NCBI RefSeq assembly: GCF_001424425.1
Contig: NZ_LMPT01000003.1
Span: forward strand, 119,260-183,259
Source: Acidovorax sp. Leaf191
GTDB taxonomy: Bacteria > Pseudomonadota > Gammaproteobacteria > Burkholderiales > Burkholderiaceae_C
DNA: 64,000 bases
Reading direction: 5' to 3'
Of this stretch, positions 3,228 through 58,607 are shown one piece after another. The notes under the pieces are model-generated. The model made no database searches and was not told the DNA's origin. It saw only the letters and a program-made list of their open reading frames with translations. Position 1 is the stretch's first letter. Each line of letters opens with the position of its first letter. The translations under genes were made by a program, and so were the position numbers.

Positions 3228-5828
3228 TCAACCGGGTCGCGGCGCCATATCGTGCTGCCAGTAATGCCTGGCACCGTCGCGTTCGCAGCCGACTTCGTCC
3301 GGCCGCGCCGATGACCAGGTGGCGGCGCCGCACCGGGCGGACTCCACCATGCGGATGCCTCGCGCGCGGTAGCGCTCGAACACATCGGGCGCCGGATGGC
3401 CGAAACGGTTGCGGTAGCCGGCCTGCACCAAAGCGGTGCGAGGCTGGACAGCCTCCAGAAACGCGGCGGTGGACGACGTCTTGCTGCCATGGTGCGGCAC
3501 CAGCAGCACGTCCGCCCGCACCGGGGCACCGCGCGCCAGCAGCGCCTGCTCCTGCGGCGCTTCGATGTCGCCGACGAGCAGGGCGACCGGCGGGTCTGGC
3601 CTTGCCCCCTGCCCCGCCGCCGTGACACGCAGCACGCAGCTCAGTGCATTGGGGCGGCGGGCCTGCGCGGCATCGCCGTCTTGCGGGTGCAGCACCTCGA
3701 AGGCCACGCCATCCCAGGTCCACCGCTGGCCCTGCAGGCAGGGCTTGACCGGGCGCAGCGCCTGCAGCGCGTGGTCGGCTTCGATGGAGCCGGTGAGCTC
3801 GGCCTGCGGCTGCTGCGCGAGCACGGCAGCTGCGCCACCCGTGTGGTCGATGTCGCGGTGGCTGAGCATGAGCACGTCCACCCGCTCGCCCAGCGCGCGC
3901 AGCAGAGGCACCAGCACGCGGTGGCCGGCATCGCTCTCACGGCTGAAGCGCGGGCCCGCGTCGTACAGCAGCGTGTGCGTGGCCGTGCGCACCAGCACCG
4001 CATTGCCCTGGCCGATGTCTGCCGCCAACAGCTCGAACTGGCCCGCCGCCGGCCGCGCCGGCTGCCACGCCAGCAACGGCCACAGCAGGGGCAGCGCCAG
4101 CAACCGCAGCCGCCAGGGCAACCGGGTGGCCAGCAACGCGCCGCCCGCCACGGCCGCCACGCCCGCCCAGAGAGGCGCCACAGGCAGAAAGACCACCGCC
4201 CAGGGCCACTGCGCCAGCCACTGCAGCAAGGCGGCCAGCGGCTGCAAGGCCAGCGCCGCCAGGCTCCACAGCGGCGCCCACAGCACGCCGCCCAGCGCCA
4301 GCGGGGTGACCACCAGCGTGACCCAGGGGATGGCCACCAGATTGGCCGCAAAGCCGACCAGCGACACCTGGCCGAACAGCAGCACACCCAGCGGTGTGAG
4401 GGCCAGCGTCACCACCCATTGCTCGCGCAACAACGAACGAAAATGCCCTCCACCGCTCGATCCATGAGCGCCAGCAGCTATCGAATTAGTAGCAAACAGC
4501 ACACCGACCGCCACGAAGCTCAGCCAGAAGCCCGCCTGCGCCAGCGCCCACGGGTCGGCCACCACCACGGCGGCGCAGGCCAGGAGCCACACCTGCGGCC
4601 ACGGCCACCGCCGGCCGCTGAGCTGCAGCAGCGCGATGGCCGCCAGCATGATCACCGTGCGCTGGGCCGGCACGCCCCAGCCGCTGAACAGCGCGTAGCC
4701 AGCCGCCAGCAGCACGCCCGCAGCCAGCGCCACCGACTGCGCCGGGGCCCGCAGGCACAGCCGGGTGGAACGGCGCCACAGCGCACGCACGGCCAATGCC
4801 GCCAGCCACGCGAAGAGCGTGATGTGAAGCCCCGAGATGCTCATCAGGTGCGCCACGCCTGTGGCGCGGAACACGTCCCAGTCGGCGCGGTCGATGGCGC
4901 GCTGATCGCCTGTCACCAGCGCCGCCACCACCCCGGCGATGCGGGCACGTGTCGGGTCGTCGCTGTGCCCATCGTGCACCAGCCGCTCGATGATGGCGTC
5001 GCGCACCGCCTGCCGTGCGCGCTCCACGGGGTGCTGCCAGGTCGAACCGAGCAGCACCGGCGCCTCGTCCTTGGGACCGGCGCGCACATAGCCGGTGGCC
5101 TGCACGCCCTGCTCCCACATCCAGAGTTCGTAGTCAAACCCGTGGGGGTTGCGCAGGCCGTGCGGCGCTTTCAACCGCACGGTCAGGTCCCAGCGCTCGC
5201 CGGCACGCAGGGCGGGCGGCGGGCGCTGCAGGTCGGCCACGCCCGCCGCATCGCGAAAGGCGCCGCCGTACCACGCGACCTCGATGCGCGGCGGCAACTG
5301 CACGGGCGCGCCCTGCAGCAGCGCGGTCTCCACATCCAGGCGCAGGCGGGTGCCTGCCTCATTGCTTTGGGGCATGGCGGCCACCATGCCGGTGACGCGG
5401 ATGTCGCGCCCTTCCAGCTGCGGCGACAGCGCCTGGCCCAGGTAGTCGGCAGACCGCAGGCCGCTGCTGCCGAACAGGGCGAGCCCACCGGCCGCAGCGG
5501 CCAGTGCCATGGCGGCGATGGGCATCCACCCAAGGTCCGCCGCCCTTGTGCGGCCCACAGCCCATGCTGCCAGCGCAAGAACACACGCAGCCACCAGCAG
5601 GCCGGCGTACGCGGTGGCGCGCCACAGCGCAGGTTGCTGCAGTTGCAGCGCAGCGCCCGCCACGGCGCCCAGCATCAGGGCGGGCAACAGCCAGGGCCGG
5701 GGTGGGCGTGCAGCCTGTGCGGTGGGCCTTGCGGCCAGCTGTGCCCCCACGCCACCGTCTTGCGCCATGCCGCCGGCCCGAGGTGACGGCCGGGCCGGAA
5801 CGGCATTAGAAGCGCTTATGTGGGGCAT
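3228..5828 (-). CDS. comEC: ComEC/Rec2 DNA-uptake channel
   Basis: 866 residues, the usual size for proteobacterial ComEC. The order is N-terminal membrane helices (~45-125), a DUF4131 region, the competence-domain membrane bundle (~290-590, with 'GVAHLMSISGLHITLFAWLAA') and a C-terminal metallo-beta-lactamase-like domain containing 'LSHRDIDHTGGAAAVL' and 'LLVPHHGSKTSS'. It forms the inner-membrane pore for single-stranded DNA during transformation. The start is uncertain: ATG 5828 has no clear ribosome site and ATG 5768 is an alternative. A dispersed repeat copy lies in frame at 4468-4492 and encodes part of a hydrophilic loop (TNSIAAGAHGSSGGGH) between membrane helices. Confidence 0.93.
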   Translation of the reverse strand: MPHISASNAVPARPSPRAGGMAQDGGVGAQLAARPTAQAARPPRPWLLPALMLGAVAGAALQLQQPALWRATAYAGLLVAACVLALAAWAVGRTRAADLGWMPIAAMALAAAAGGLALFGSSGLRSADYLGQALSPQLEGRDIRVTGMVAAMPQSNEAGTRLRLDVETALLQGAPVQLPPRIEVAWYGGAFRDAAGVADLQRPPPALRAGERWDLTVRLKAPHGLRNPHGFDYELWMWEQGVQATGYVRAGPKDEAPVLLGSTWQHPVERARQAVRDAIIERLVHDGHSDDPTRARIAGVVAALVTGDQRAIDRADWDVFRATGVAHLMSISGLHITLFAWLAALAVRALWRRSTRLCLRAPAQSVALAAGVLLAAGYALFSGWGVPAQRTVIMLAAIALLQLSGRRWPWPQVWLLACAAVVVADPWALAQAGFWLSFVAVGVLFATNSIAAGAHGSSGGGHFRSLLREQWVVTLALTPLGVLLFGQVSLVGFAANLVAIPWVTLVVTPLALGGVLWAPLWSLAALALQPLAALLQWLAQWPWAVVFLPVAPLWAGVAAVAGGALLATRLPWRLRLLALPLLWPLLAWQPARPAAGQFELLAADIGQGNAVLVRTATHTLLYDAGPRFSRESDAGHRVLVPLLRALGERVDVLMLSHRDIDHTGGAAAVLAQQPQAELTGSIEADHALQALRPVKPCLQGQRWTWDGVAFEVLHPQDGDAAQARRPNALSCVLRVTAAGQGARPDPPVALLVGDIEAPQEQALLARGAPVRADVLLVPHHGSKTSSTAAFLEAVQPRTALVQAGYRNRFGHPAPDVFERYRARGIRMVESARCGAATWSSARPDEVGCERDGARHYWQHDMAPRPG
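4468..4492 (-). repeat. Dispersed repeat, partial copy inside comEC
   Basis: Read on the minus strand this 25-base stretch is CTACTAATTCGATAGCTGCT followed by GGCGC, matching 20 of 25 positions of the first half of the copy at 47694-47755. It is in frame with comEC and encodes the segment TNSIAAGA. Only the first stem-loop half is recognisable. Confidence 0.65.
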
Positions 5829-13714: not shown

Positions 13715-13975
13715 AGCGGCGGATTGTAGTGCGGCAGCGGGCCAATAGCTGGATGAAAAACCAGTGACGGTAGCACTGTCAAAGACGGTGGTGACGGTCC
13801 ACGCGGTGCCGGGCCGCGAGAACGGGGCTGCGTTGGATGAACAGTGAGGCCGTTGGGGCCAGTTGCAACACACGAGGGTACTGTCGTGCTGAAGGCGGGG
13901 CCGCAACCCCGCTGCCAACTGTATTGGTTACCGGTGTATCAGCGCGTTTCGCCCAATCTGGCTACATTCCTGCGC

Positions 13976-15193
13976 ATGCATATGAATACTCCCAAACTGT
14001 CCATGCTCCAGGTGCTCGCCTGCGGCGCGGCCATCGTGACGCTGTCCATGGGTATCCGCCATGGGTTCGGGCTCTGGCTGCTGCCCATCACCCAGGAGAT
14101 GGGCTGGACGCGCCAGTCGTTCGCGCTGGCCATCGCGATCCAGAACCTGTCCTGGGGCGTGATCGGCATCTTTGCGGGCATGGCGGCCGACCGGTTCGGG
14201 GCGTTCCGGGTGCTGATGGGCGGTGCAGTGCTGTACGGCCTGGGCCTGGCGGGCATGGCCCTGTCGCCCACGCCCACGCTGTTTGCGCTGACCGCTGGGG
14301 TGCTCATCGGCGCCGCGCAGGCCGGCACCACCTACGCCGTGATCTACGGCGTGCTGGGGCGGCAGATTGCGCCGGAGCGCCGGTCCTGGGCCATGGGCGT
14401 GGCAGCCGCGGCGGGATCGTTCGGACAGTTCCTCATGGTGCCGGTGGAGGGCTGGCTGATTGCGGGGCTGGGCTGGCAGCAGGCGCTGCTGGTGCTGTCG
14501 ATGGCGGTGCTGCTCATCGTGCCGCTGGCCTTCGGCCTGCGCGAGCCGGGCTTCAAGGGAAGCGCACCGGTCAAGCGCGAGCAGACCATCGTGCAGGCGC
14601 TGGGCGAGGCGTTCCGCTACCCCAGCTTCAACCTGCTGATGGCCGGGTATTTCGTGTGCGGCTTCCAGGTGGTGTTCATCGGGGTGCACATGCCCAGCTA
14701 CCTCAAGGACCATGGCCTGTCGCCGCAGGTGGCCAGCTACGCGCTGGCGCTGATCGGCCTGTTCAACGTGCTGGGCACCTACGTGGCTGGCACCCTGGGC
14801 CAGCGCATGCCCAAGCGCTACATCCTGGCCTTCATCTACTTCGCCCGTGCCGCGGTGATCACAGTGTTCCTGATCGTGCCGCTGTCGCCGATGTCGGTGT
14901 ATGTGTTCTCCGCCGTGATGGGCACGCTGTGGCTGTCGACCATTCCACCCACCAACGCCACCATCGCCCAGATCTTCGGCGTGCAGCATCTGTCGATGCT
15001 GGGCGGCTTCGTGTTCTTCAGCCACCAGATCGGCAGCTTTCTGGGCGTGTGGCTGGGCGGCTACCTCTATGACGCGACGGGCAGCTACGATATCGTCTGG
15101 TATATCGCCATCGGGCTCGGGGTGTTTGCCGGCCTGGTGAACCTGCCGGTCAAGGAAAGCCCCATCGCGCGCAGCACGCCCCAACCCGCCTGA
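13976..15193 (+). CDS. MFS transporter
   Basis: 405 residues with about 12 membrane helices and the 'GMAADRFGAFRVL' loop characteristic of the major facilitator superfamily. It opens 'MLQVLACGAAIVTLSMGIRH', resembling MFS carriers of the oxalate/formate or monocarboxylate type common in Burkholderiales. The substrate cannot be assigned. ATG 13976 is chosen over the longer open frame because signal-like sequence begins there; ATG 13982 is also possible. The small ORF at 15196 begins two bases after its stop. Confidence 0.88.
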   Translation: MHMNTPKLSMLQVLACGAAIVTLSMGIRHGFGLWLLPITQEMGWTRQSFALAIAIQNLSWGVIGIFAGMAADRFGAFRVLMGGAVLYGLGLAGMALSPTPTLFALTAGVLIGAAQAGTTYAVIYGVLGRQIAPERRSWAMGVAAAAGSFGQFLMVPVEGWLIAGLGWQQALLVLSMAVLLIVPLAFGLREPGFKGSAPVKREQTIVQALGEAFRYPSFNLLMAGYFVCGFQVVFIGVHMPSYLKDHGLSPQVASYALALIGLFNVLGTYVAGTLGQRMPKRYILAFIYFARAAVITVFLIVPLSPMSVYVFSAVMGTLWLSTIPPTNATIAQIFGVQHLSMLGGFVFFSHQIGSFLGVWLGGYLYDATGSYDIVWYIAIGLGVFAGLVNLPVKESPIARSTPQPA

Positions 15194-15403: not shown

Positions 15404-15464
15404 TTCAAGTCTTTTTGGCTGCTACCGCGCTTCTGACTAGCGCTAGCAGCTATTATTTTCATAG
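15404..15464 (-). repeat. Dispersed repeat copy upstream of a methyltransferase gene
   Basis: On the minus strand it reads CTATGAAAATAATAG then CTGCTAGCGC, with a later GCGCGGTAGCAGCC and a TTGAA end. The block ATAGCTGCTAGCGC is identical to the copy at 47694-47755. Two potential stem-loops are present (CTAT/ATAG and TAGCGC/GCGC.TA). It ends 3 bases before the ATG at 15468, so it forms most of the untranslated leader of that gene. Confidence 0.75.
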
Positions 15465-15467
15465 CAT

Positions 15468-16022
15468 ATGCACGGTCAAGAATTGGCGTCCGAATGGGTG
15501 CGCCGCTGGAGCCACCTGATCGCCCCTGGCAGCACCGCCCTGGATGTGGCCTGCGGTGCGGGCCGCCACCTGCGCTGGCTGCGCGGCCTGGGCCACGCGG
15601 TGGTGGGCGTGGACCGCTCGGTTGAGGCCTTGGCAGCCTGCGAGGGGCTCGGCGAGTTGCTGCTGGCGGACATCGAAGCAGGGCCGTGGCCCTTGGCGGG
15701 GCGCCAGTTCGGCGCCGTGGTGGTCACCCACTATCTGTGGCGGCCGCTGCTGCCCGTCATCGTGCAGAGCGTGGCGCCGGGCGGCGTGCTGATCTACGAA
15801 ACCTTTGCGCAGGGCAACGAAACCGTGGGGCGCCCTGCCCGGCCTGAATTCCTGCTGCAGCCGGGCGAATTGCTCGCGGCCTGCGCGCCGCTGCGCACCG
15901 TGGCGTACGAGGATGGCTTACTGCAAAATCCCGACCGTTTCGTGCAGCGCATCACCGCAGTGCGGGAACTCCCGCACGCGGGGAGTCCGCCCCGGCACCC
16001 TTTGGTCTCGCCGCCTAGTTAG
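15468..16022 (+). CDS. Class I SAM-dependent methyltransferase
   Basis: 184 residues with the SAM-binding motif I 'ALDVACGAGRHLRWLRGLGH', motif II 'VVGVDRSVEAL' and the acidic/FGAVVVTHYLWR motif IV region. It is close to the TehB-like group of small methyltransferases. The substrate is unknown. The start is placed at ATG 15468 directly behind the repeat element, with no convincing ribosome site, so expression may be weak or depend on the repeat. The last ~10 residues are Pro-rich and overlap the dapA leader. Confidence 0.82.
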   Translation: MHGQELASEWVRRWSHLIAPGSTALDVACGAGRHLRWLRGLGHAVVGVDRSVEALAACEGLGELLLADIEAGPWPLAGRQFGAVVVTHYLWRPLLPVIVQSVAPGGVLIYETFAQGNETVGRPARPEFLLQPGELLAACAPLRTVAYEDGLLQNPDRFVQRITAVRELPHAGSPPRHPLVSPPS

Positions 16023-28472: not shown

Positions 28473-28495
28473 CTATCAAATCAGTAGCATAGAAT
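28473..28495 (+). promoter_or_regulatory. Candidate eno promoter overlapping a repeat remnant
   Basis: CTATCAAATCAGTAGC (28473-28488) resembles the first stem-loop of the dispersed repeat. Overlapping its right edge is TAGAAT at 28490-28495, a possible -10 about 90 bases before eno. No clear -35. The repeat remnant may therefore have contributed promoter sequence. Confidence 0.35.
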
Positions 28496-29870: not shown

Positions 29871-30068
29871 AGCTTGCCCTGAGCCGCTTCGCGTCTTTCC
29901 CCTCTCCTGCGGGAGGGGGACGCACCCCCTGGCCCGTCCAAGCCGGCTCCACGGGTGCGCTGATGTGGAGCGTGCCCAGGGCGTCCGTTGCGCCCCTGCG
30001 CGCAACGAGTGGACTGTGCCGCCCTGGCGGCCCGGCAGCGCCACACTGACCCACCCACCGCCTGAGTC

Positions 30069-30558: not shown

Positions 30559-31071
30559 GTGACTTCTCCGCCTTCCGTCATCCTGCTGGGCGCGCCCGGT
30601 ACCGGCGTGCAGACGCTCTGTGCAGCGCTTGAGCGGCACCCAGCCACCACATCGGTGCGCCTGGCGTGGGGCCACATGCTGGATGCCACGGCAGACCCGG
30701 CGGCGACCGCCGACGCGGCGGGCACCACGGTGTTGCTGATGGGCCTGGATCAACCCTGCCCGGACAGTGACCGGCTCGCCCAGGAGGCCGCCGACGCGGA
30801 GCTGCGATCAGCACTTGCACGCGCGGGCATCAGCTACCGGGTGGTGTATGGACAGGGTGCACAGAGAATCACCAGCGCACTCAACGCTATAAAAAGCATA
30901 GCGACTGGCGCTTATCCATCAAGCGGTAGCGGCCATTTTGAACCCGATACGGACCCATCCGCCACCCGCACGGCAAGGCTGCGGGCGTGGAACTGCGAGA
31001 AATGCAGCGATCCTGAGTGCGAGCACCGCCTCTTCACCGCCCTGACCGGGCGCGACAGCCAGCGCGGCTGA
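30559..31071 (+). CDS. Orphan protein with P-loop-like N-terminus and Cys-rich tail
   Basis: 170 residues from a GTG codon without an obvious ribosome site. The N-terminus 'VILLGAPGTGVQTLCAAL' looks like a Walker A loop (GAPGTGVQT) but lacks the usual GK(S/T) lysine, so nucleotide binding is doubtful. The C-terminus has a CxxC..DxxCxH cluster ('NCEKCSDPECEHRLF') that could bind zinc. Between them a dispersed repeat (30885-30942) is read through in frame, encoding AIKSIATGAYPSSGSGHFE. No family recognised; the frame being intact across the repeat supports it being a real gene. Confidence 0.55.
   Translation: MTSPPSVILLGAPGTGVQTLCAALERHPATTSVRLAWGHMLDATADPAATADAAGTTVLLMGLDQPCPDSDRLAQEAADAELRSALARAGISYRVVYGQGAQRITSALNAIKSIATGAYPSSGSGHFEPDTDPSATRTARLRAWNCEKCSDPECEHRLFTALTGRDSQRG
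30885..30942 (+). repeat. Dispersed repeat copy inside the orphan gene
   Basis: The segment begins CTATAAAAAGCATAG, continues through GGCGC and CCATCAAGCGG, and ends GGCCATTTTGAA. Aligned without gaps to the copy at 47694-47755, 38 of 53 positions agree, including the identical CCATCAAGCGG and GGCCATTTT blocks. It is read in frame by the surrounding gene. Confidence 0.8.
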
Positions 31072-33758: not shown

Positions 33759-34562
33759 ATGGAGCTTCGCCACCGTGCACTGCAGGTCTTGTGCCTTGCA
33801 GACCCCGAACAAAAAGCGGCTGCGGCGCTGGACCTGCATGCGCAAGCAGCTACGCTTTCGATAGCAGAAGACACCCCTGCCCTGCCGGACGGCGCTGGCG
33901 ACCTGCCCGGGCGCCCCGCGCGGCCCGAACTGCGGCGCCACACCGACATGGCGCGGCGCTCGCCCGCCACTGCAGAGGGCCGCGCCGTATTGGTCCATGC
34001 GATTGCGCACATCGAATTCAATGCCATCAACCTGGCCCTGGACGCCGTCTGGCGCTTTGGCGGCATGCCGCGTGCGTACTACCTGGACTGGATGCTGGTG
34101 GCGGCCGAGGAAGCGCGGCACTTCAGGCTGCTGCGCGACCACCTGCGCAGGCAGGGGCACGACTACGGCGACTTTCCGGCCCACCAGGGCCTGTGGACGA
34201 TGTGCGAGAAGACCGGCCACGACATCCTGGCGCGCATGGCGCTGGTGCCGCGCACGCTGGAGGCCCGGGGGCTGGACGCCACGCCGCAGATCCAGGCCAA
34301 GCTGCGCCAGGTGGGCGCGCCGGACGCCCTGGAGGCCGTGGCCATCCTGGACATCATCCTGCGGGACGAGGTCGGCCATGTGGCCATCGGCAACCACTGG
34401 TACCGCTGGCTGTGCGAGCGTGCGGGGCACGACCCCGAAACCCTCTATGGCACCCTGGTCACCCAGTACGAAGCCCCGCGCCTCAAACCCCCCTTCAACG
34501 AAACCGCGCGCCGCAAGGCAGGCTTTACCGACAACGAATTGCGCTGGCTGCAGCAGATCTGA
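33759..34562 (+). CDS. Ferritin-like DUF455 protein
   Basis: 267 residues from ATG 33759 (MELRHRALQV), preferred over the frame's first ATG because the family begins here. Diiron-type helices are suggested by 'AIAHIEFNAINLALDAVWRF' (E..H pattern), 'VAAEEARHFRLLRDHL' and 'ILRDEVGHVAIGNHWY'. DUF455 proteins are MiaE-like in fold and are predicted oxygenases or iron proteins; the substrate is unknown. A partial repeat (33840-33864) lies in the poorly conserved N-terminal stretch (TLSIAED). Confidence 0.88.
   Translation: MELRHRALQVLCLADPEQKAAAALDLHAQAATLSIAEDTPALPDGAGDLPGRPARPELRRHTDMARRSPATAEGRAVLVHAIAHIEFNAINLALDAVWRFGGMPRAYYLDWMLVAAEEARHFRLLRDHLRRQGHDYGDFPAHQGLWTMCEKTGHDILARMALVPRTLEARGLDATPQIQAKLRQVGAPDALEAVAILDIILRDEVGHVAIGNHWYRWLCERAGHDPETLYGTLVTQYEAPRLKPPFNETARRKAGFTDNELRWLQQI
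33840..33864 (-). repeat. Dispersed repeat, partial copy in the DUF455 gene
   Basis: On the minus strand: CTATCGAAAGCGTAGCTGCT then TGCGC. It keeps the CTAT/(G)TAG arms and the GCTGCTxGCGC block of the family but differs in the loop (17 of 25 against the 47694 copy). Confidence 0.5.
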
Positions 34563-46972: not shown

Positions 46973-47670
46973 CCGACGCCTGCCTTGCCAGACCTGCCGC
47001 ACCCGGCACTGCTGCCACTTGCGCTCTGGCGCGCCGCCGCGCGCTGATGGCGGGCTTGGCCCTGCTCGCTGCTGCGCCCCTGGCGGCCTGCGGCCGCAAG
47101 GCCCCGCGCGGCCAGGTGGTGCCGCCCGATGCCACCGTGCTGGCGCTGGGCGACTCGCTGACCTCCGGCGTGGGCGCATCGGCCGATACGGCCTACCCCG
47201 CCGTGCTGCAGCGCCTGACGGGCTGGAAGGTGGTCAACGGCGGCGTGTCGGGCGACACCTCGGCCCAGGCGCTGGAGCGCCTGCCCGCGCTGCTGCAAAA
47301 ACACCAGCCAGCGCTCGTGATCGTGAGCATCGGCGGCAACGACTTCCTGCGCCGCCAGAGCGCCACCGCCACCCGCACCCACATCCGCAGCATCTGCACG
47401 CAGGCCCGCGCCAGCGGCGCCCAGGTGGTGCTGGTGGCCGTGCCCGAGCTGACGTTTCTGGCGGCGTCGGCCGGCCTGCTGAGCGACCATGCGATGTACG
47501 AAGAGATTGCCAGCGACCTGAAGATCCCCCTGCACAGCAAGGGCTGGTCCACGGTGCTGGCCGACGCGAGCCTGCGGTCCGACCAGATCCACGCCAACGC
47601 GACAGGCTACGAGCGGTTCGCGCAGGGGCTGGTGGAGACGCTCAAAAGCACGGGGCTGCTGGTGCGTTGA
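46969..47670 (+). CDS. SGNH/GDSL-type esterase (arylesterase/TesA-like lysophospholipase)
   Basis: 233 residues. A lipoprotein-like signal ends in LAAC (Cys41; if translation starts at Met27 the signal has a more usual length). The four SGNH blocks are present: 'LALGDSLTSGVGAS' (Ser63), 'VVNGGVSGDTSAQ', 'IVSIGGNDFLRR' and 'SDQIHANATGYERF' (Asp-x-x-His). It probably hydrolyses small acyl esters or lysophospholipids in the periplasm. Its start overlaps the AEC gene. Confidence 0.9.
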   Translation: MTDACLARPAAPGTAATCALARRRALMAGLALLAAAPLAACGRKAPRGQVVPPDATVLALGDSLTSGVGASADTAYPAVLQRLTGWKVVNGGVSGDTSAQALERLPALLQKHQPALVIVSIGGNDFLRRQSATATRTHIRSICTQARASGAQVVLVAVPELTFLAASAGLLSDHAMYEEIASDLKIPLHSKGWSTVLADASLRSDQIHANATGYERFAQGLVETLKSTGLLVR

Positions 47671-47691
47671 TGCGCTGATGCGCTGATGCGC
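47668..47691. repeat. Three tandem TGATGCGC units at the SGNH stop codon
   Basis: Three exact 8-base units in a row. The first begins with the TGA stop codon (47668-47670) of the SGNH gene. Because the unit is not a multiple of three, the three TGAs fall in all three frames. Confidence 0.8.
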
Positions 47692-47693
47692 CA

Positions 47694-47755
47694 ACTATCA
47701 TTTTGATAGCTGCTAGCGCACGCCCATCAAGCGGCAGAGGCCATTTTCATTCAAA
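47694..47755 (+). repeat. Dispersed repeat, reference full-length copy
   Basis: First stem-loop CTATCATTTTGATAG, then CTGCTAGCGC, then CCATCAAGCGGCAGAGGCC and the tail ATTTTCATTCAAA. It fills the space between the convergent SGNH and queG genes and runs over the queG end: the queG stop (TGA, complement 47747-47749) and its last two codons come from the repeat tail. Confidence 0.82.
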
Positions 47756-48868
47756 CTCCCGACCCAGCGCCCACGCCACGTGCTCGCGCACCAGGGCGCT
47801 TTCATGGTCCGCCCGCGACTGCAGCGCCACCCGCAAGGCGCCATCCCCCGTGGCCCTGAGCGCATTGCCCAGCGCCACCGCCACGTTGCGCAGCCAGCGT
47901 TCGTGCCCGATGCGCCGGATGGGCCCGCCCTCGGTCATGCGCAAAAAGGTGGGCTCATCCCACGCGAACAAATGCACCAGCTGCTGGCCCGACAGCCCCT
48001 GGCGCTCGTCGAAGTCGGGCAGCCGGCTGACCTGCGCGAACTTGTTCCAGGGGCAGATGAGCTGGCAGTCGTCGCAGCCATAGATGCGGTTGCCCAGCAG
48101 AGGCCGCAGCTCCAGCGGTATGGCCCCCGCATGCTCGATGGTGAGGTACGAGATGCAGCGCCGCGCATCGATGCGGTGCGGCGCGATGATGGCCTGCGTG
48201 GGGCACACGTCGATGCAGGCACTGCAGCTGCCGCAGTGCGCGGTGACGGGCGCGCTCTCGGGCAGCGCCATGTCGACATAGATCTCGCCCAGGAAGAACA
48301 TCGACCCCGCCTCGCGGTTGAGCACCAGCGTGTGCTTGCCGCGCCAGCCCTGCCCGCTGCGCGCGGCCAGCTCGGCCTCCAGCACCGGGGCCGAGTCGGT
48401 GAACACGCGGTGGCCGAACGGGCCGATGGCCTCGGCGATGCGGTCGCTCAGCTTCTGAAGACGTGCGCGCAGCACCTTGTGGTAGTCACGCCCCCGGGCA
48501 TAGACAGAGACGATGCCCTCGTGCGGCCGGGTCAGCCGTGCCAGCTCGTGGGCCTGCCAGGCGGGCCCCGCGCCTTGGCTGCCTTCTTCCGCCGAACCCT
48601 GGCCCGCCGCCTGCCCGGTGTCCCGCGGCAAATAATCCATGCGCGCCGTGATCACGCTCACCGTCCCGGGCACCAGCTCGGACGGGCGCGCGCGTTTGAG
48701 GCCGTGCGATGCCATGTAATGCATCTCGCCATGGAACCCCTGCGCCAGCCAGGCCGAAAGACCGGGCTCTGCAGCGGACAAGTCCACCCCCGCCACGCCG
48801 ATTTGGGAAAATCCCAGCTCGCGGGCCCACTCCTGCATTTGAGGAACGAGTTGACTGTTGCACCACAT
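47747..48868 (-). CDS. queG: Epoxyqueuosine reductase
   Basis: 373 residues starting MWCNSQLVPQMQEWARELGF. Cobalamin-binding N-terminal part with 'FSQIGVAGVDLSAAEPGL'; two [4Fe-4S] sites in 'CGSCSACIDVCPTQAI' and 'CDDCQLICPWNKF'. It carries out the last step of queuosine formation in tRNA. An approximately 30-residue Gly/Ala/Gln-rich insert follows 'TARMDYLPRDTG'. The start overlaps the divergent tsaE start by 18 bases; Met at 48838 would remove the overlap but would drop family-conserved residues. Confidence 0.93.
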   Translation of the reverse strand: MWCNSQLVPQMQEWARELGFSQIGVAGVDLSAAEPGLSAWLAQGFHGEMHYMASHGLKRARPSELVPGTVSVITARMDYLPRDTGQAAGQGSAEEGSQGAGPAWQAHELARLTRPHEGIVSVYARGRDYHKVLRARLQKLSDRIAEAIGPFGHRVFTDSAPVLEAELAARSGQGWRGKHTLVLNREAGSMFFLGEIYVDMALPESAPVTAHCGSCSACIDVCPTQAIIAPHRIDARRCISYLTIEHAGAIPLELRPLLGNRIYGCDDCQLICPWNKFAQVSRLPDFDERQGLSGQQLVHLFAWDEPTFLRMTEGGPIRRIGHERWLRNVAVALGNALRATGDGALRVALQSRADHESALVREHVAWALGREFE

Positions 48869-49384
48869 ACCGGCCAGATTGTAGAAAGCGGCACGCCCGG
48901 CGCCGCCGAACCCGCCCGCCATTTCACCTGGCACAGCGAGGACGTCACCGCCGCCTTCGCCCGCCGCCTCGCCGCGCAGCCCCTCCTCGCCAACGCGTTT
49001 GTCACACTGCACGGCGACCTGGGCGCCGGCAAGACCACCCTGGTGCGCCACCTGCTGCGCGCCCTGGGCGTCGAGGGCCGCATCAAGAGCCCGACCTACG
49101 CCGTGGTGGAGCCGCACGAGGCGCCGGGCCTTGCGCCGCATGCGACCACGGTCTGGCACTTCGACTTCTACCGCTTCGACGACCCGCGCGAGTGGGAAGA
49201 CGCCGGATTCAGGGACATTTTTGCCAACCCGGGCCTCAAGGTGGCAGAATGGCCAGAAAAGGCTGCAGCGCTGACCCCGCCTGCAGACCTTGCTATACAC
49301 ATTGAAGCAATTGACGACACCGAAAGGACCGTCACGGTGCACGCCCACACGGCCCACGGCCTCCACCTGCTGCAAGGACTCTGA
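48851..49384 (+). CDS. tsaE: tRNA threonylcarbamoyladenosine biosynthesis ATPase TsaE
   Basis: 177 residues if started at TTG 48851, which has AGGA 7 bases upstream; no in-frame ATG exists at a sensible place. The P-loop is 'LHGDLGAGKTTLVRHLLRAL', followed by 'IKSPTYAVVEPHEA', 'VWHFDFYRFDDPREWEDAG' and 'KVAEWPEKAA', all standard TsaE blocks. It drives the TsaBDE cycle for t6A37 on ANN-decoding tRNAs. The amidase gene starts 4 bases after its stop, the frequent tsaE-amiC order. Confidence 0.92.
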   Translation: MTVAPHTGQIVESGTPGAAEPARHFTWHSEDVTAAFARRLAAQPLLANAFVTLHGDLGAGKTTLVRHLLRALGVEGRIKSPTYAVVEPHEAPGLAPHATTVWHFDFYRFDDPREWEDAGFRDIFANPGLKVAEWPEKAAALTPPADLAIHIEAIDDTERTVTVHAHTAHGLHLLQGL

Positions 49385-53584: not shown

Positions 53585-53637
53585 TTTGCTTCACACCCAC
53601 CATCACCGCCCGCCTGGGCGACCGATGGCGGCGTAAA

Positions 53638-53676
53638 AAAACTCCTGGCACTCGTACACCGAGCGTCAGGAGTTTT
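53638..53676. terminator. Bidirectional terminator between the glycine-zipper gene and dedA
   Basis: AAAACTCCTG (53638-53647) pairs with CAGGAGTTTT (53667-53676). A- and T-runs flank both arms (six A before, TTTT after), so it can end both convergent transcripts. Confidence 0.85.
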
Positions 53677-53702
53677 GCTTTGGGGGTGGCGTTGCCGGTG
53701 CT

Positions 53703-54444: not shown

Positions 54445-56538
54445 GTGAACGACACCACCGCCCCCCTCGCCACGGCCCTGCCGGCCAGCGCCCCCATCCC
54501 CCCACGCCGCCCCATCCGCGACCTGCCCAACGAGCTGATCAGCCAGATCGCGGCTGGCGAAGTGGTGGAGCGCCCCGCTTCCGTGGTGCGCGAGCTGGTG
54601 GACAACGCGCTCGATGCCGGCGCCACGCAGATCACCGTGCGGCTGTCCGCCGGCGGCGTGCGCCTGATCACGGTGGAAGACGACGGCGGCGGCATTCCGC
54701 ACGAGGAGCTGCCCGTGGCGCTGCGCCGCCACGCCACCAGCAAGATCACCAACCTGAACGACCTGGAAACTGTGGCCACGATGGGCTTTCGGGGCGAGGC
54801 GCTGGCGGCCATCGCTTCGGTGTCCGAGATGTCCCTGCTCTCGCGACCTGCGGCGCAAGGCAACGCCTTTTTGCTGGACGCACGCAGCGGCGAACTGCGC
54901 CCTGCCGCCCGCAGCACGGGCACCACGGTGGAGGTCAAGGAGCTTTTCTTTTCGACCCCGGCGCGCCGCAAATTTCTCAAGACCGACGCCACCGAGCTTG
55001 CGCACTGCATCGAGTCCGTGCGCCGCCACGCGCTGGCCCGGCCCGATGTGGGATTTGCCATCTGGCACGAAGGCAAGCTGGTGGAGCAGTGGCGCGCGAC
55101 CTTCGTGCCGGGCCAGGCCAGCGCCAGCGCCAGCGGCCTGCAGGACGCGCTGGCGCGGCGCCTGTCGGACGTGCTGGGCGAGGACTTCGTCGCGCAGTCG
55201 GTCGCCGTGCAGCACCGCGTGGGCCCGGTGGTCGTGACCGGCCGCGCCGGCCTGCCCGACGCCGCACGCTCGCGCGCCGACCACCAGTACTGCTACGTCA
55301 ACGGCCGCTTCGTGCGCGACAAGGTGCTGACCCACGCCGCGCGCAGCGCGTACGAAGACGTGCTGCACGGCCACAAGCAGCCGGTGTATGCGCTGTATGT
55401 AGAGATCGACCCGGCGCGCGTGGATGTGAACGTGCACCCCACCAAGATCGAGGTGCGCTTTCGCGACAGCCGCGAGGTGCATCAGGCGGTGCGCCACGCG
55501 GTGGAAAACGCGCTGGCCGCACCACGCGCCGCAGCGCTGGCCGCGGCAGCCGCCGCAGCCTCTGCCGAGGGCGATGCGAGCCCTGCGGACGACAGCGCTG
55601 CCGTTGTGACGTCAAAACAGGCGCTACCGCGCACTTGGCAAGCGCAATCCGCTATCAGATTTGAAGAACGTGGCCACCAGGTGGCCGACCTGCAGGCGCT
55701 GTGGGGCCCGCGCAAGGACCCTGCTGCGGCCAGCGCGCCAGGCGGCCAGGCCCTGTGGCAAGGCACGCAGGGGCCGCTGGGGCAGCCAGGACAGGACAGG
55801 CCCGCTGGCGAATCGGCCGAGGCACCGCCCTGGAGCTCTCCAGGTACCGCGTTCCCGCCGCCAGCCGCTGCACCACTCAGCGCCAATGCCATGGCAGGCA
55901 GCGCACCCGCCGGCACCGGCCGAGACACCCCAGAGACCACCTGGCCCCTGGGCCGCGCCGTGGCACAGTTGCACGGCGTGTACATCCTGGCCGAGAACGC
56001 GCAGGGCATGATCATCGTGGACATGCACGCCGCGCACGAACGCATCGTGTACGAACGCCTCAAGTCCCAGGTGGACAGCGGCGCACGCATTGCCAGCCAG
56101 CCACTGCTGATCCCCGCCACCTTCGCCGCCACGGCCGAGGAAGTCGCCACTGCCGAAGAATCCACCGAGGTGCTGGCCCTGCTGGGCCTGGAGGTGGTGC
56201 CGTTCTCGCCCAAGACCCTGGCCGTGCGGGCCGTGCCCACCACGCTGGCCACCGCGTCGGGCTTTGGCGACCCGGTCGAGCTGGCCCGCAGCGTGCTGGC
56301 CGAACTGGCCGCGCACGACGCGACCACCGTGGTGCAGCGCGCCCGCAACGAGATCCTGGGCACCATGGCCTGCCACGGCGCGGTGCGGGCCAACCGCAGG
56401 CTCACCATCGACGAGATGAACGCGCTGCTGCGCCAGATGGAGACCACCGACCGCAGCGACCAGTGCAACCACGGCCGGCCCACGTGGCGGCAGTTGTCGA
56501 TGAAGGAACTGGACGCGCTGTTCCTGCGCGGACGGTAG
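54445..56538 (+). CDS. mutL: DNA mismatch repair protein MutL
   Basis: 697 residues from GTG 54445. The N-terminal GHKL ATPase contains 'IAAGEVVERPASVVRELVDN', 'VEDDGGGIPHEE' and 'TMGFRGEALAAIASV'; the C-terminal dimerisation domain includes 'AHERIVYERLKSQVDSG' and ends 'QCNHGRPTWRQLSMKELDAL'. It lacks the DQHAAHERxxYE endonuclease motif in full, having DMHAAHERIVYE with a weak metal site, so nuclease activity is uncertain. A repeat copy at 55611-55665 is read through in frame in the variable linker. Confidence 0.94.
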   Translation: MNDTTAPLATALPASAPIPPRRPIRDLPNELISQIAAGEVVERPASVVRELVDNALDAGATQITVRLSAGGVRLITVEDDGGGIPHEELPVALRRHATSKITNLNDLETVATMGFRGEALAAIASVSEMSLLSRPAAQGNAFLLDARSGELRPAARSTGTTVEVKELFFSTPARRKFLKTDATELAHCIESVRRHALARPDVGFAIWHEGKLVEQWRATFVPGQASASASGLQDALARRLSDVLGEDFVAQSVAVQHRVGPVVVTGRAGLPDAARSRADHQYCYVNGRFVRDKVLTHAARSAYEDVLHGHKQPVYALYVEIDPARVDVNVHPTKIEVRFRDSREVHQAVRHAVENALAAPRAAALAAAAAAASAEGDASPADDSAAVVTSKQALPRTWQAQSAIRFEERGHQVADLQALWGPRKDPAAASAPGGQALWQGTQGPLGQPGQDRPAGESAEAPPWSSPGTAFPPPAAAPLSANAMAGSAPAGTGRDTPETTWPLGRAVAQLHGVYILAENAQGMIIVDMHAAHERIVYERLKSQVDSGARIASQPLLIPATFAATAEEVATAEESTEVLALLGLEVVPFSPKTLAVRAVPTTLATASGFGDPVELARSVLAELAAHDATTVVQRARNEILGTMACHGAVRANRRLTIDEMNALLRQMETTDRSDQCNHGRPTWRQLSMKELDALFLRGR
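55611..55665 (-). repeat. Dispersed repeat copy in the mutL linker
   Basis: On the minus strand: CAAATCTGATAGCGGATTGC, then GCTTGCC, then GCGCGGTAGCGCC and a TGTTTTGAC tail. The GATAGC, GCGC, GGTAGCGCC and TTTTGA blocks occur in the same order and spacing as in the other copies; the first CTAT arm is lost. It encodes SKQALPRTWQAQSAIRFE within the Pro/Ala-rich MutL linker. Confidence 0.6.
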
Positions 56539-57394: not shown

Positions 57395-58507
57395 ATGATC
57401 CCCCTCGACCCCCACTTCATCGCACAGACCACCCCCACGGGCGAGGCCATTGCGCGCGCCGTGGAAGCCGGCTGGCCCCTGGGCCCTGTGGCGCACTGCG
57501 TGCTGCTGCGGCGCGGCTTTAACCAAGTCTATGAACTGCACTTTGCCAGCGGGCTGCACGCCATCGCCCGGCTGAGCGCCGAACGGCCTCGCGGCGACCC
57601 CAACATCGCCTACGAAACCGCATTGCTAACCCACCTGCGCGCGCACGGCATTCCGGTCGCCGCGCCGCTGCCCGCGGCAGATGGGTCCTTCAGCGTGGTG
57701 CTGGCACTGCCCGAAGGTCCCCGGGCGCTGCTGCTGTTCGACTTTCTACCGGGCGACCCGCCCGGCGAATCGCTGGTGGATATCGAAGCCACCGGCCGGG
57801 GCCTGGCCCAGTTGCATGGCGCAGCACAGAGCTACGCAGGCCCCGAAAGCCACTACACGCTGGACCTGCCGCTGCTGCTGGACGCATCACTGCAGCGCAT
57901 GCTCACAGCACCCACCGTGGATGCGGCTCTGGCACGCGAATTCACGGCTCTGGCCGAGGACCTGCGTTCGCGCTTTGCGGACCCGCCGAGCCTCACCCGC
58001 GTGCATTGCCATGGCGACTGCCACGGCAGCAACAACTTCATGGCCGACAGCCCCGACAACCCCGAAGGAGCCGAGCGCAGCCGCGTGGCCGCGTTTTTCG
58101 ACTTCGACGACGCAGGCCCGGGCCTGCTGGCGTACGAGCTGAGCGTGTACCTGTGGGTGCTGCTGCCGCGCAGTCATGAAACACCCGCCACTGCCGCGGT
58201 GATGGAGCGCTGGCACCGTTATCTCATCGGGTACACCGGAGTGCGCGCCATACACGCGGCGGACCTGGCGGCCATCACCCCGTGCCTGGCGCTTCGGCAG
58301 TTCTGGGTGATGGGTGAATACGCCGGCCGCATCCCCGTCTGGGGCACGCAGGCCATGCCCACGCACTGGCTGCGCAAACAGCCTGCGCTCATGCGGGCCT
58401 GGATGGATTTGCCGCCCGCCGACCAGCTTGCAGCCCAGGAGCCCGCCAAAGCTGCAACTGCACCGGCATCATCAACGGCAGCAGCAACGGCAGCAGCAAC
58501 GGCGTGA
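57395..58507 (+). CDS. APH-family phosphotransferase (homoserine-kinase-like)
   Basis: 370 residues from ATG 57395 (MIPLDPHFIAQ), with GGAAG 8 bases upstream; ATG 57380 lies inside that site. The kinase-like fold shows the catalytic loop 'RVHCHGDCHGSNNF' (Brenner motif HGDxHxxN) and the metal-binding 'FFDFDDAGPG'. The N-lobe 'GFNQVYELHFASGLHAIARL' supplies the nucleotide pocket. Relatives include homoserine and choline/ethanolamine kinases and stress kinase SrkA. The Ala/Thr-rich tail (AAATAAATA) is encoded by short CAGCAACGG-like repeats. Confidence 0.88.
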   Translation: MIPLDPHFIAQTTPTGEAIARAVEAGWPLGPVAHCVLLRRGFNQVYELHFASGLHAIARLSAERPRGDPNIAYETALLTHLRAHGIPVAAPLPAADGSFSVVLALPEGPRALLLFDFLPGDPPGESLVDIEATGRGLAQLHGAAQSYAGPESHYTLDLPLLLDASLQRMLTAPTVDAALAREFTALAEDLRSRFADPPSLTRVHCHGDCHGSNNFMADSPDNPEGAERSRVAAFFDFDDAGPGLLAYELSVYLWVLLPRSHETPATAAVMERWHRYLIGYTGVRAIHAADLAAITPCLALRQFWVMGEYAGRIPVWGTQAMPTHWLRKQPALMRAWMDLPPADQLAAQEPAKAATAPASSTAAATAAATA

Positions 58508-58526
58508 CAGCGCACCGAACACACAA

Positions 58527-58558
58527 AAAACAAAGCCCGCAGTCGCGGGCTTTGTTTT
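58527..58558. terminator. Bidirectional terminator between the phosphotransferase and glpQ genes
   Basis: AAAACAAAGCCCGC (58527-58540) pairs perfectly with GCGGGCTTTGTTTT (58545-58558) around AGTC, with A- and T-rich outer arms usable by both convergent transcripts. Confidence 0.9.
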
Positions 58559-58607
58559 GGCAGGAGTGGCACGGCACAAGGTCGCCGTGTCCCCGTCGAT
58601 CTGCCGA

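Follow-up and report, generated by a model that had tools for sequence, protein, structure and literature searches.

A repeat of about 68 bp is dispersed through the genome of Acidovorax sp. Leaf191, each copy laid out as a CT dinucleotide, nine AT-rich bases, an RTAG tetranucleotide (mostly ATAG) and an imperfect palindrome. We favor reading it as an ancient, ATAG-tagged REP-like family that is no longer visibly mobile and has been retained under constraint, and we give this reading about an even chance. The REP-like character had been proposed in a preliminary description of the DNA, and is supported by the CT, the RTAG and the mismatched palindrome, by the copy number and by a preference for gene 3' ends. 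That description knew of no named family, and our searches of Rfam and the open-access literature likewise returned none; as far as these sources show, the repeat is undescribed.

A repeat family dispersed through the genome

The analyzed DNA, hereafter the window, is a stretch of 64,000 nucleotides (64 kb) in which a dispersed repeat family with at least six copies had been recognized by inspection. The family is borne out: all six stretches match one 64-bp model. This covariance model was built from 34 copies (six in the window and 28 elsewhere in the genome), and nothing else in the window matches it as well as the six stretches do (E 1.3e-23 to 4e-17), values that are flattered because these copies helped to build it. 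The copies, together with the parts and neighbors of the one behind queG, are as follows.

4433-4496, minus strand: repeat copy in comEC (ORF 3228-5828, minus), on the same strand as the gene; E 1.3e-23
15405-15468, minus strand: repeat copy between predicted plus-strand genes; E 2.1e-20
28473-28488, minus strand: probable remnant, 5' part only; E 0.17
30883-30946, plus strand: repeat copy that overlaps a predicted gene (30559-31071, plus) in its 3' part; E 4.9e-22
33805-33868, minus strand: weaker repeat copy at the 5' end of a DUF455 gene (33789-34562, plus; PF04305); E 4e-17
47047-47670, plus strand: GDSL lipase gene (Pfam)
47691-47754, plus strand: repeat copy in the convergent gap between the GDSL lipase gene and queG; E 1.2e-22 (covariance model)
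47695-47696, plus strand: CT dinucleotide 11/10 bases ahead of the tag, proposed cleavage-type site (from CT offset counts)
47706-47709, plus strand: ATAG tag at the foot of the palindrome (ATAGC in 27/27 queG orthologues with a copy)
47713-47737, plus strand: imperfect palindrome, stem 47713-47721 with 47729-47737 (compensatory TT/AA to CC/GG across genera)
47747-49012, minus strand: queG (Pfam)
55607-55670, minus strand: repeat copy in the linker of mutL (54445-56538, plus), residues ~386-409; E 6.9e-18

The window copies contain 44-59% GC. The stop codon of queG (47747-47749) falls within the 3' tail of the copy at 47691-47754. The copy at 15405-15468 has a methyltransferase gene (15483-16022) as one neighbor and, on its other side, a small ORF and an MFS transporter gene (13886-15193; Pfam and gene calls), and its orthologous segment was found in five of five relatives; that of the copy at 30883-30946 was aligned in G451, G459, G453 and G456, G450 being unmappable. 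The weaker copy at 33805-33868 has an nhmmer E of 3.2e-6. The comEC copy lies inside the Competence domain (PF03772, residues 304-570) and was aligned over six genomes, and the mutL copy sits between the DNA_mis_repair and MutL_C domains. The repeat had been taken to have no coding capacity, which is not strictly true given the copies inside comEC (4433), mutL (55607) and the DUF455 gene (33805). As for the remnant proposed at 28473-28488, its own score is weak, but it lies in a 141-bp gap orthologous to one that holds a clear copy in G450 (E 2.6e-12), and it is therefore plausibly real.

Within the mutL linker (55601-55669), the repeat encodes a peptide of the W-x-AQ-x-AI-x-F type in MutL. 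A similar linker peptide occurs in relatives, including a Rhodoferax (L100) whose repeat count is at background; rows L067, L084 and L098 were disregarded in this cross-genus comparison because they were in the wrong frame. Since the Polaromonas MutL matches are short (E ~5e-4) and possibly a peptide motif, we do not claim a family-wide ancestral insertion into mutL.

Searching the genome revealed the excess over controls that the preliminary description had proposed to look for. With one mismatch or none allowed, the pattern ATAGCTGCTWGCGC was counted 254 times genome-wide as compared to five times for the pattern read backwards, and an iterated profile produced 135 matches (E<0.01) in 1.264 Mb of the genome as compared to none in the reversed sequence. 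Some of these matches represent both strands of a single palindromic copy; merging strands leaves ~100 copies, 94 on contig C19 and six in the window (E<=0.05). Extrapolation gives ~460 copies per genome merged and 630 unmerged, the covariance model found at least 150 matches, and the density is roughly 80-100 per Mb. That the copies merely resemble one another by chance, as GC-rich palindromes might, has practically no probability left: both the backwards-pattern and the reversed-sequence controls refute it, and we found no point in its favor.

Other features were noticed along the way. A second, unrelated dispersed repeat of ~190 bp, made of two modules and beginning CCCCCTGAGTCGC, is present in the window at 29912-29976 (plus) and in full form at L222:7507-7690; it gave 31 BLAST rows, including the query, in 1.26 Mb of the genome and many in relatives, and the corresponding place in G451 lacks part of it. 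At positions 58454-58596 of the window, each strand has Rfam matches to threonine/leucine operon leaders that stay below the gathering scores (E 0.004-0.8). None of the six Rfam matches in the window (E<=1) falls on a repeat copy.

CT, tag and palindrome

In an alignment of the 135 matches, information starts at about position -1, ends at about 67 and nearly vanishes outside these limits, which shows that the repeat is a discrete ~68-bp unit with sharp, AT-rich ends. Its bases run in the order T-G-C-T-A-T, AT tract, ATAGC, tg, CTAGCGCTT, a 7-base loop, AAGCG(G/C)TAG, n, GGC and AT tract. A CT precedes the tag by 11/10 bases in 92 of the 98 own copies and in 37 of the 39 copies from across genera, and AT directly after the CT is present in only 54 of 98 and 26 of 39, respectively; because the search profiles include CT, AT and tag alike, this contrast between CT and AT is fair and the absolute values are inflated. 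The tag itself is RTAG in 94 of the 98 own copies (ATAG in 86, GTAG in eight) and in all 39 cross-genus copies (ATAG in 37, GTAG in two).

Two stem-loops had been proposed for each copy, and only the 3' one is supported, by compensatory changes across genera. We counted pairs in a set of 39 copies that covers seven genomes; 10 were taken from the 30 best own copies, and the other 29 are all but one (L324) of 30 foreign copies. The central (3') stem is paired in 83.5% of cells and has 16 compensated cells, with 0 of 500 shuffles as high, and every slid version of the stem scores lower than the true register. Compensation is chiefly from TT/AA to CC/GG, in Ottowia and Polaromonas copies. Stem pairs with change on both sides number four, which is not unusual (101 of 500 shuffles reached it), and related sequences may exceed such shuffles without structure. 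Covariation in an extended outer stem was no higher than in shuffles, and within the own genome there was none, an all-pairs scan yielding nothing convincing. For the 5' pairing of GCTAT with ATAGC, the cross-genus copies contain no compensated cell, and a 5' stem-loop is thus unsupported. The 5' block makes more sense as a CT plus a tag of the REP type than as a stem, since the CT is kept so much more often than the AT that follows it (92 versus 54 of 98). According to the available text of PMC8266576, TnpAREP reads a CT near an xTAG at the 5' foot of a mismatched stem in single-stranded DNA, and its substrates combine a GTAG guide, CT cleavage and stem mismatches.

Position, distribution and age of the copies

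We examined the surroundings of 135 copies (E<1e-3) from C19, the window and the relative G477 with a self-trained gene caller that was checked against the Pfam-supported genes of the window only. The copies avoid coding DNA and prefer gene 3' ends: 102 are intergenic and 33 lie inside predicted genes (in both orientations), the density per kb is 1.05 in convergent, 0.42 in tandem and 0.23 in divergent gaps (gaps >=50 bp) as compared to 0.023 in coding DNA, and the median distance from a copy to a gene 3' end is 24 bp. Orientation relative to tandem genes is the same for 27 copies and opposite for 25. Comparable positional behavior is described for published REPs in the available text of PMC3733652. 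Pairs less than 600 bp apart comprise one inverted pair (~390 bp) among 92 copies on C19 and one, with like spacing, among 37 in G477; there are none among the six copies of the window or the 26 on contig C21 of G451, and three same-strand close pairs on other own contigs were picked out by eye among the matches listed. A predicted gene at C19:414738-415928 (L212) has two inverted copies ~390 bp apart, and a gene on contig C13 of G477 is alike.

Similar sequences had been thought common in Comamonadaceae. Common they are; their spread is patchy rather than even, with genera and species at background. Our counts used one 14-base pattern and a reversed-pattern control, such that a diverged form could be missed. 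Of 399 genomes searched in the order, those that do not belong to the family of the window had counts of 0-11, near the control (read by eye). Five of the 12 genomes in that family had 254 (own), 253, 214, 39 and 24 (control 12), and the other seven had 1-6. Named genomes were covered through 45 of 80 queG loci: Acidovorax NB1 (122), A. facilis (282), Comamonas aquatica (120), Curvibacter delicatus (48), Polaromonas RGN.1 (388), Polaromonas P2-4 (283) and Ottowia bin_17 (476) are carriers, and eight Variovorax genomes, Hydrogenophaga, Ramlibacter, Comamonas BIGb0124, Curvibacter lanceolatus and two Limnohabitans are at background. Within the genus, 34 of 39 relatives have 18-462 matches and five (G445, G448, G473, G474 and G482) are at background with 1-8; the contig matches of G473 are identical to those of a Verminephrobacter genome. 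A QueG tree of 72 rows needs nine changes of state, at least five of them forced by supported branches. G448, G474 and G482 form one clade in it, and as a single gene tree it fits loss or gain. In G445, a 3-kb queG query gave 55 matches, part of the query being multicopy there.

The copies appear old. G451 is 96% identical to the own genome over the queG region, and all 29 of the 29 mappable sites are occupied, counted from each side (62 and three sites were unmappable, the 62 mostly since G451 was sampled in part). Occupancy of mapped sites was 23 of 28 and 21 of 29 against G477, which is ~83% identical, and eight of 11 and four of five against G459. Nearest-neighbor identity among 98 own copies has a maximum of 0.88 and a median of 0.71, only slightly above the 0.76 and 0.68 of independently drawn columns; there are no near-identical copies, and the median identity to the consensus is 0.67. 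With every mapped G451 site filled, copies that are not near-identical and a Y1 gene unlinked to the repeat, these data do not bear out the mobile element suggested earlier. The empty orthologous sites that would mark movement did not appear against G451, and no filled/empty pair was found between close genomes, which leaves no target duplication to be read. Searching with one query copy gave matches in two of 72,556 plasmid records and in none of 50,697 phage records, and on this near-absence of matches to a single query we rejected carriage by plasmids or phages. Replication-strand bias was limited to weak arcs (five of 300 shuffles in G450, 22 of 300 in G377). Judged by the GC skew of 20 short windows, the G450 arcs do not line up with the replichores, and lagging-strand insertion, itself a weak expectation, was dropped.

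A search for a matching transposase had also been proposed, and the Y1 genes neither flank the repeat nor correlate with its presence. The own genome contains one Y1_Tnp gene, with no copy beside it. Y1_Tnp matches occur in 21 of 23 other genomes (20 above the cut-off), carriers and non-carriers alike, and none was found in two carriers, Ottowia bin_17 (a metagenome bin) and C. aquatica. Two of 25 Y1 loci have a copy within ~1.5 kb (E<1e-3), and none of the 25 has a copy on each side. An ordinary GTAG REP family mobilized by a resident RAYT would agree with the one Y1_Tnp gene and with the eight of 98 copies that carry GTAG, but the unflanked Y1 loci, the missing correlation and the absence of recent copies make it very improbable; searches for Y1_Tnp in the own genome and 23 others left a resident RAYT unsupported as the mobilizer.

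Constraint, alternative readings and related systems

The queG site was recovered through its flanking genes and not through the repeat. Searching 40 genomes of the genus produced 30 loci, to which four named loci were added and from which three duplicates were removed, giving 31 different loci. A copy is present in 27, some of them with a different upstream gene; the place is copyless in G448, G474, G482 and Verminephrobacter, which loss and an insertion that never happened fit alike. ATAGC is identical in all 27 carrier loci, and CT is at its fixed offset in 22 (among the five loci that lack it there, L154 owes this to a second tag chosen in error). In the 46 gap-free columns that lie outside queG (non-coding columns 6-51), conservation among species follows conservation among paralogues (rho 0.72, p 2e-8): the tag, the AT tract and the stem bases are kept, and the loop and flank change. 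The case for constraint comes mainly from this one locus, and evidence beyond it is only moderate. In 19 intergenic pairs between the own genome and G451, 28 of 455 informative columns changed as compared to 82 of 835 other element columns (p 0.03); flanks changed at 98 of 759 positions within 20 bp and at 111 of 1533 from 20 to 60 bp (partly coding), and the latter, hardly above the informative columns, argues against constraint. A rate comparison with G477, biased because it includes only pairs with both copies detected, was not relied on. Among 80 queG loci, five of Polaromonas and one of Rhodoferax also have an identically oriented copy immediately behind queG; this hints at an old shared site but is no proof of one.

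Selection could act on a repeat that was never a transposon, namely a 3'-end signal (a variable intrinsic terminator, an RNA-stabilizing stem-loop or a protein-binding palindrome) whose copies arise otherwise and are kept where useful. We consider this rather unlikely, though a serious contender. Enrichment at gene 3' ends and in convergent gaps is what such a signal predicts, as is column-wise constraint at queG even behind a different upstream gene. Consistent with it, a separate terminator-like site is rarer in genes with a nearby copy (5/105) than in genes without (139/732, p 9e-5), an effect that is partly geometric and smaller than it looks since the copy fills 69 of the 160 searched bases and, in 18 of the 105 cases, the site detected overlaps the copy. 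Moreover, at 53625-53690 (53.63-53.69 kb), G453 and G456 have a nearly perfect palindromic copy where the window, G451 and G459 have an intrinsic terminator. The mean stem-loop z is -2.3 for intergenic copies, -1.1 for copies inside genes and -0.42 for other intergenic DNA; absolute folding energy is the same in copies as in other intergenic DNA, and only the z-score differs. T-runs, on the other hand, are not associated with reading direction (p 0.59), on which ground we rejected an intrinsic terminator as the whole explanation, and simple terminator scans of two window sites placed none on the copy. It also speaks against a 3'-end signal that 33 of 135 copies lie in predicted genes in both orientations, and that a discrete unit with a fixed CT/RTAG layout at hundreds of places seems to require a copying process.

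At the other extreme, the copies could be neutral fossils of a dead MITE family that merely decay, which we think quite improbable. Their age and divergence, the lack of polymorphic insertions against G451 and the tolerance of copies in genes would all follow, and several sites without a match in a relative have a similar length there, as if decayed. Simple decay, however, does not predict that non-uniform conservation at queG matches the family profile, that informative columns are the slower ones between the own genome and G451, or that so many mapped sites are retained against a genome as distant as G477.

Under the reading that we favor, an ancient REP-like family under constraint, a TnpAREP/IS200-type HuH enzyme would have copied the repeat in an ancestor of several Comamonadaceae genera, and copying would then have ceased or become very slow in the Acidovorax lineage. 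The examined copies are now inherited in fixed positions, most of them no more than tens of bases away from a gene 3' end, and the stem-loop may be retained as a mark or protection of transcript 3' ends or as a binding site for a host protein. Enzyme, partner and function are what we infer here. Against the REP-like reading stand Y1 loci that are never flanked on both sides and are unlinked to carriage, a tag that is mostly ATAG rather than GTAG, the lack of close inverted pairs of the REPIN kind and of within-genome covariation, undirected T-runs and ordinary folding energy. A more specific version, which we consider rather unlikely, is a domesticated REP network in which the code of CT, RTAG and stem that earlier served copying is now read, at fixed sites by the ends of hundreds of genes, by a partner that is a host protein or a tamed HuH enzyme; loss of the partner would then lead to loss of the whole set, as in the five background members of the genus, Variovorax, Hydrogenophaga and others.

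To our knowledge, the reason that bacteria keep REP-like repeats over the long term is an open question. Here, all 27 aligned carrier loci have an identical tag at a single non-coding site of fixed position, while some members of the genus seem to be without any copies. Comparing the gene content of carriers and non-carriers could reveal a partner and so make the question of retention testable.

Among described repeats, BRE is likewise dispersed, mostly intergenic and sometimes found inside genes, and the available text of its description (Hot et al. 2011, PMC3110155) reports it in Polaromonas, Acidovorax, Delftia, Rhodoferax and Bordetella. The Bordetella form is given there as 75-91 bp, ~69% GC, at most 29 copies per genome and sometimes tandem; by this description BRE is set apart from the present repeat, which is about half GC, reaches ~80-100 copies per Mb and is mostly single. 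IS200/IS605-derived elements share a guide-like tetranucleotide beside a hairpin, as described in the available text of PMC8266576; the repeat differs from them in that no second IS-type end was recognized and no parent element was found at the Y1_Tnp loci examined. The closest layout is that of the REPs associated with TnpAREP/RAYT in Escherichia coli, Pseudomonas and Stenotrophomonas. Unlike these, the repeat has a tag that is mostly ATAG, a single CT at a fixed offset inside the unit, a longer unit (~68 bp) with AT-rich ends, no flanking RAYT or close inverted pairs that we could find, and no sign of recent copying in the own genome; on tag and RAYT, we do not assign it to the GTAG REP family, alike as the layout is. 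What it shares with REPs, as these are portrayed in the available text of PMC3733652 and PMC8266576, is a high copy number, a mismatched imperfect palindrome with a tetranucleotide tag at its 5' foot and a CT nearby, a preference for gene 3' ends and occasional copies inside genes, repair genes among them.
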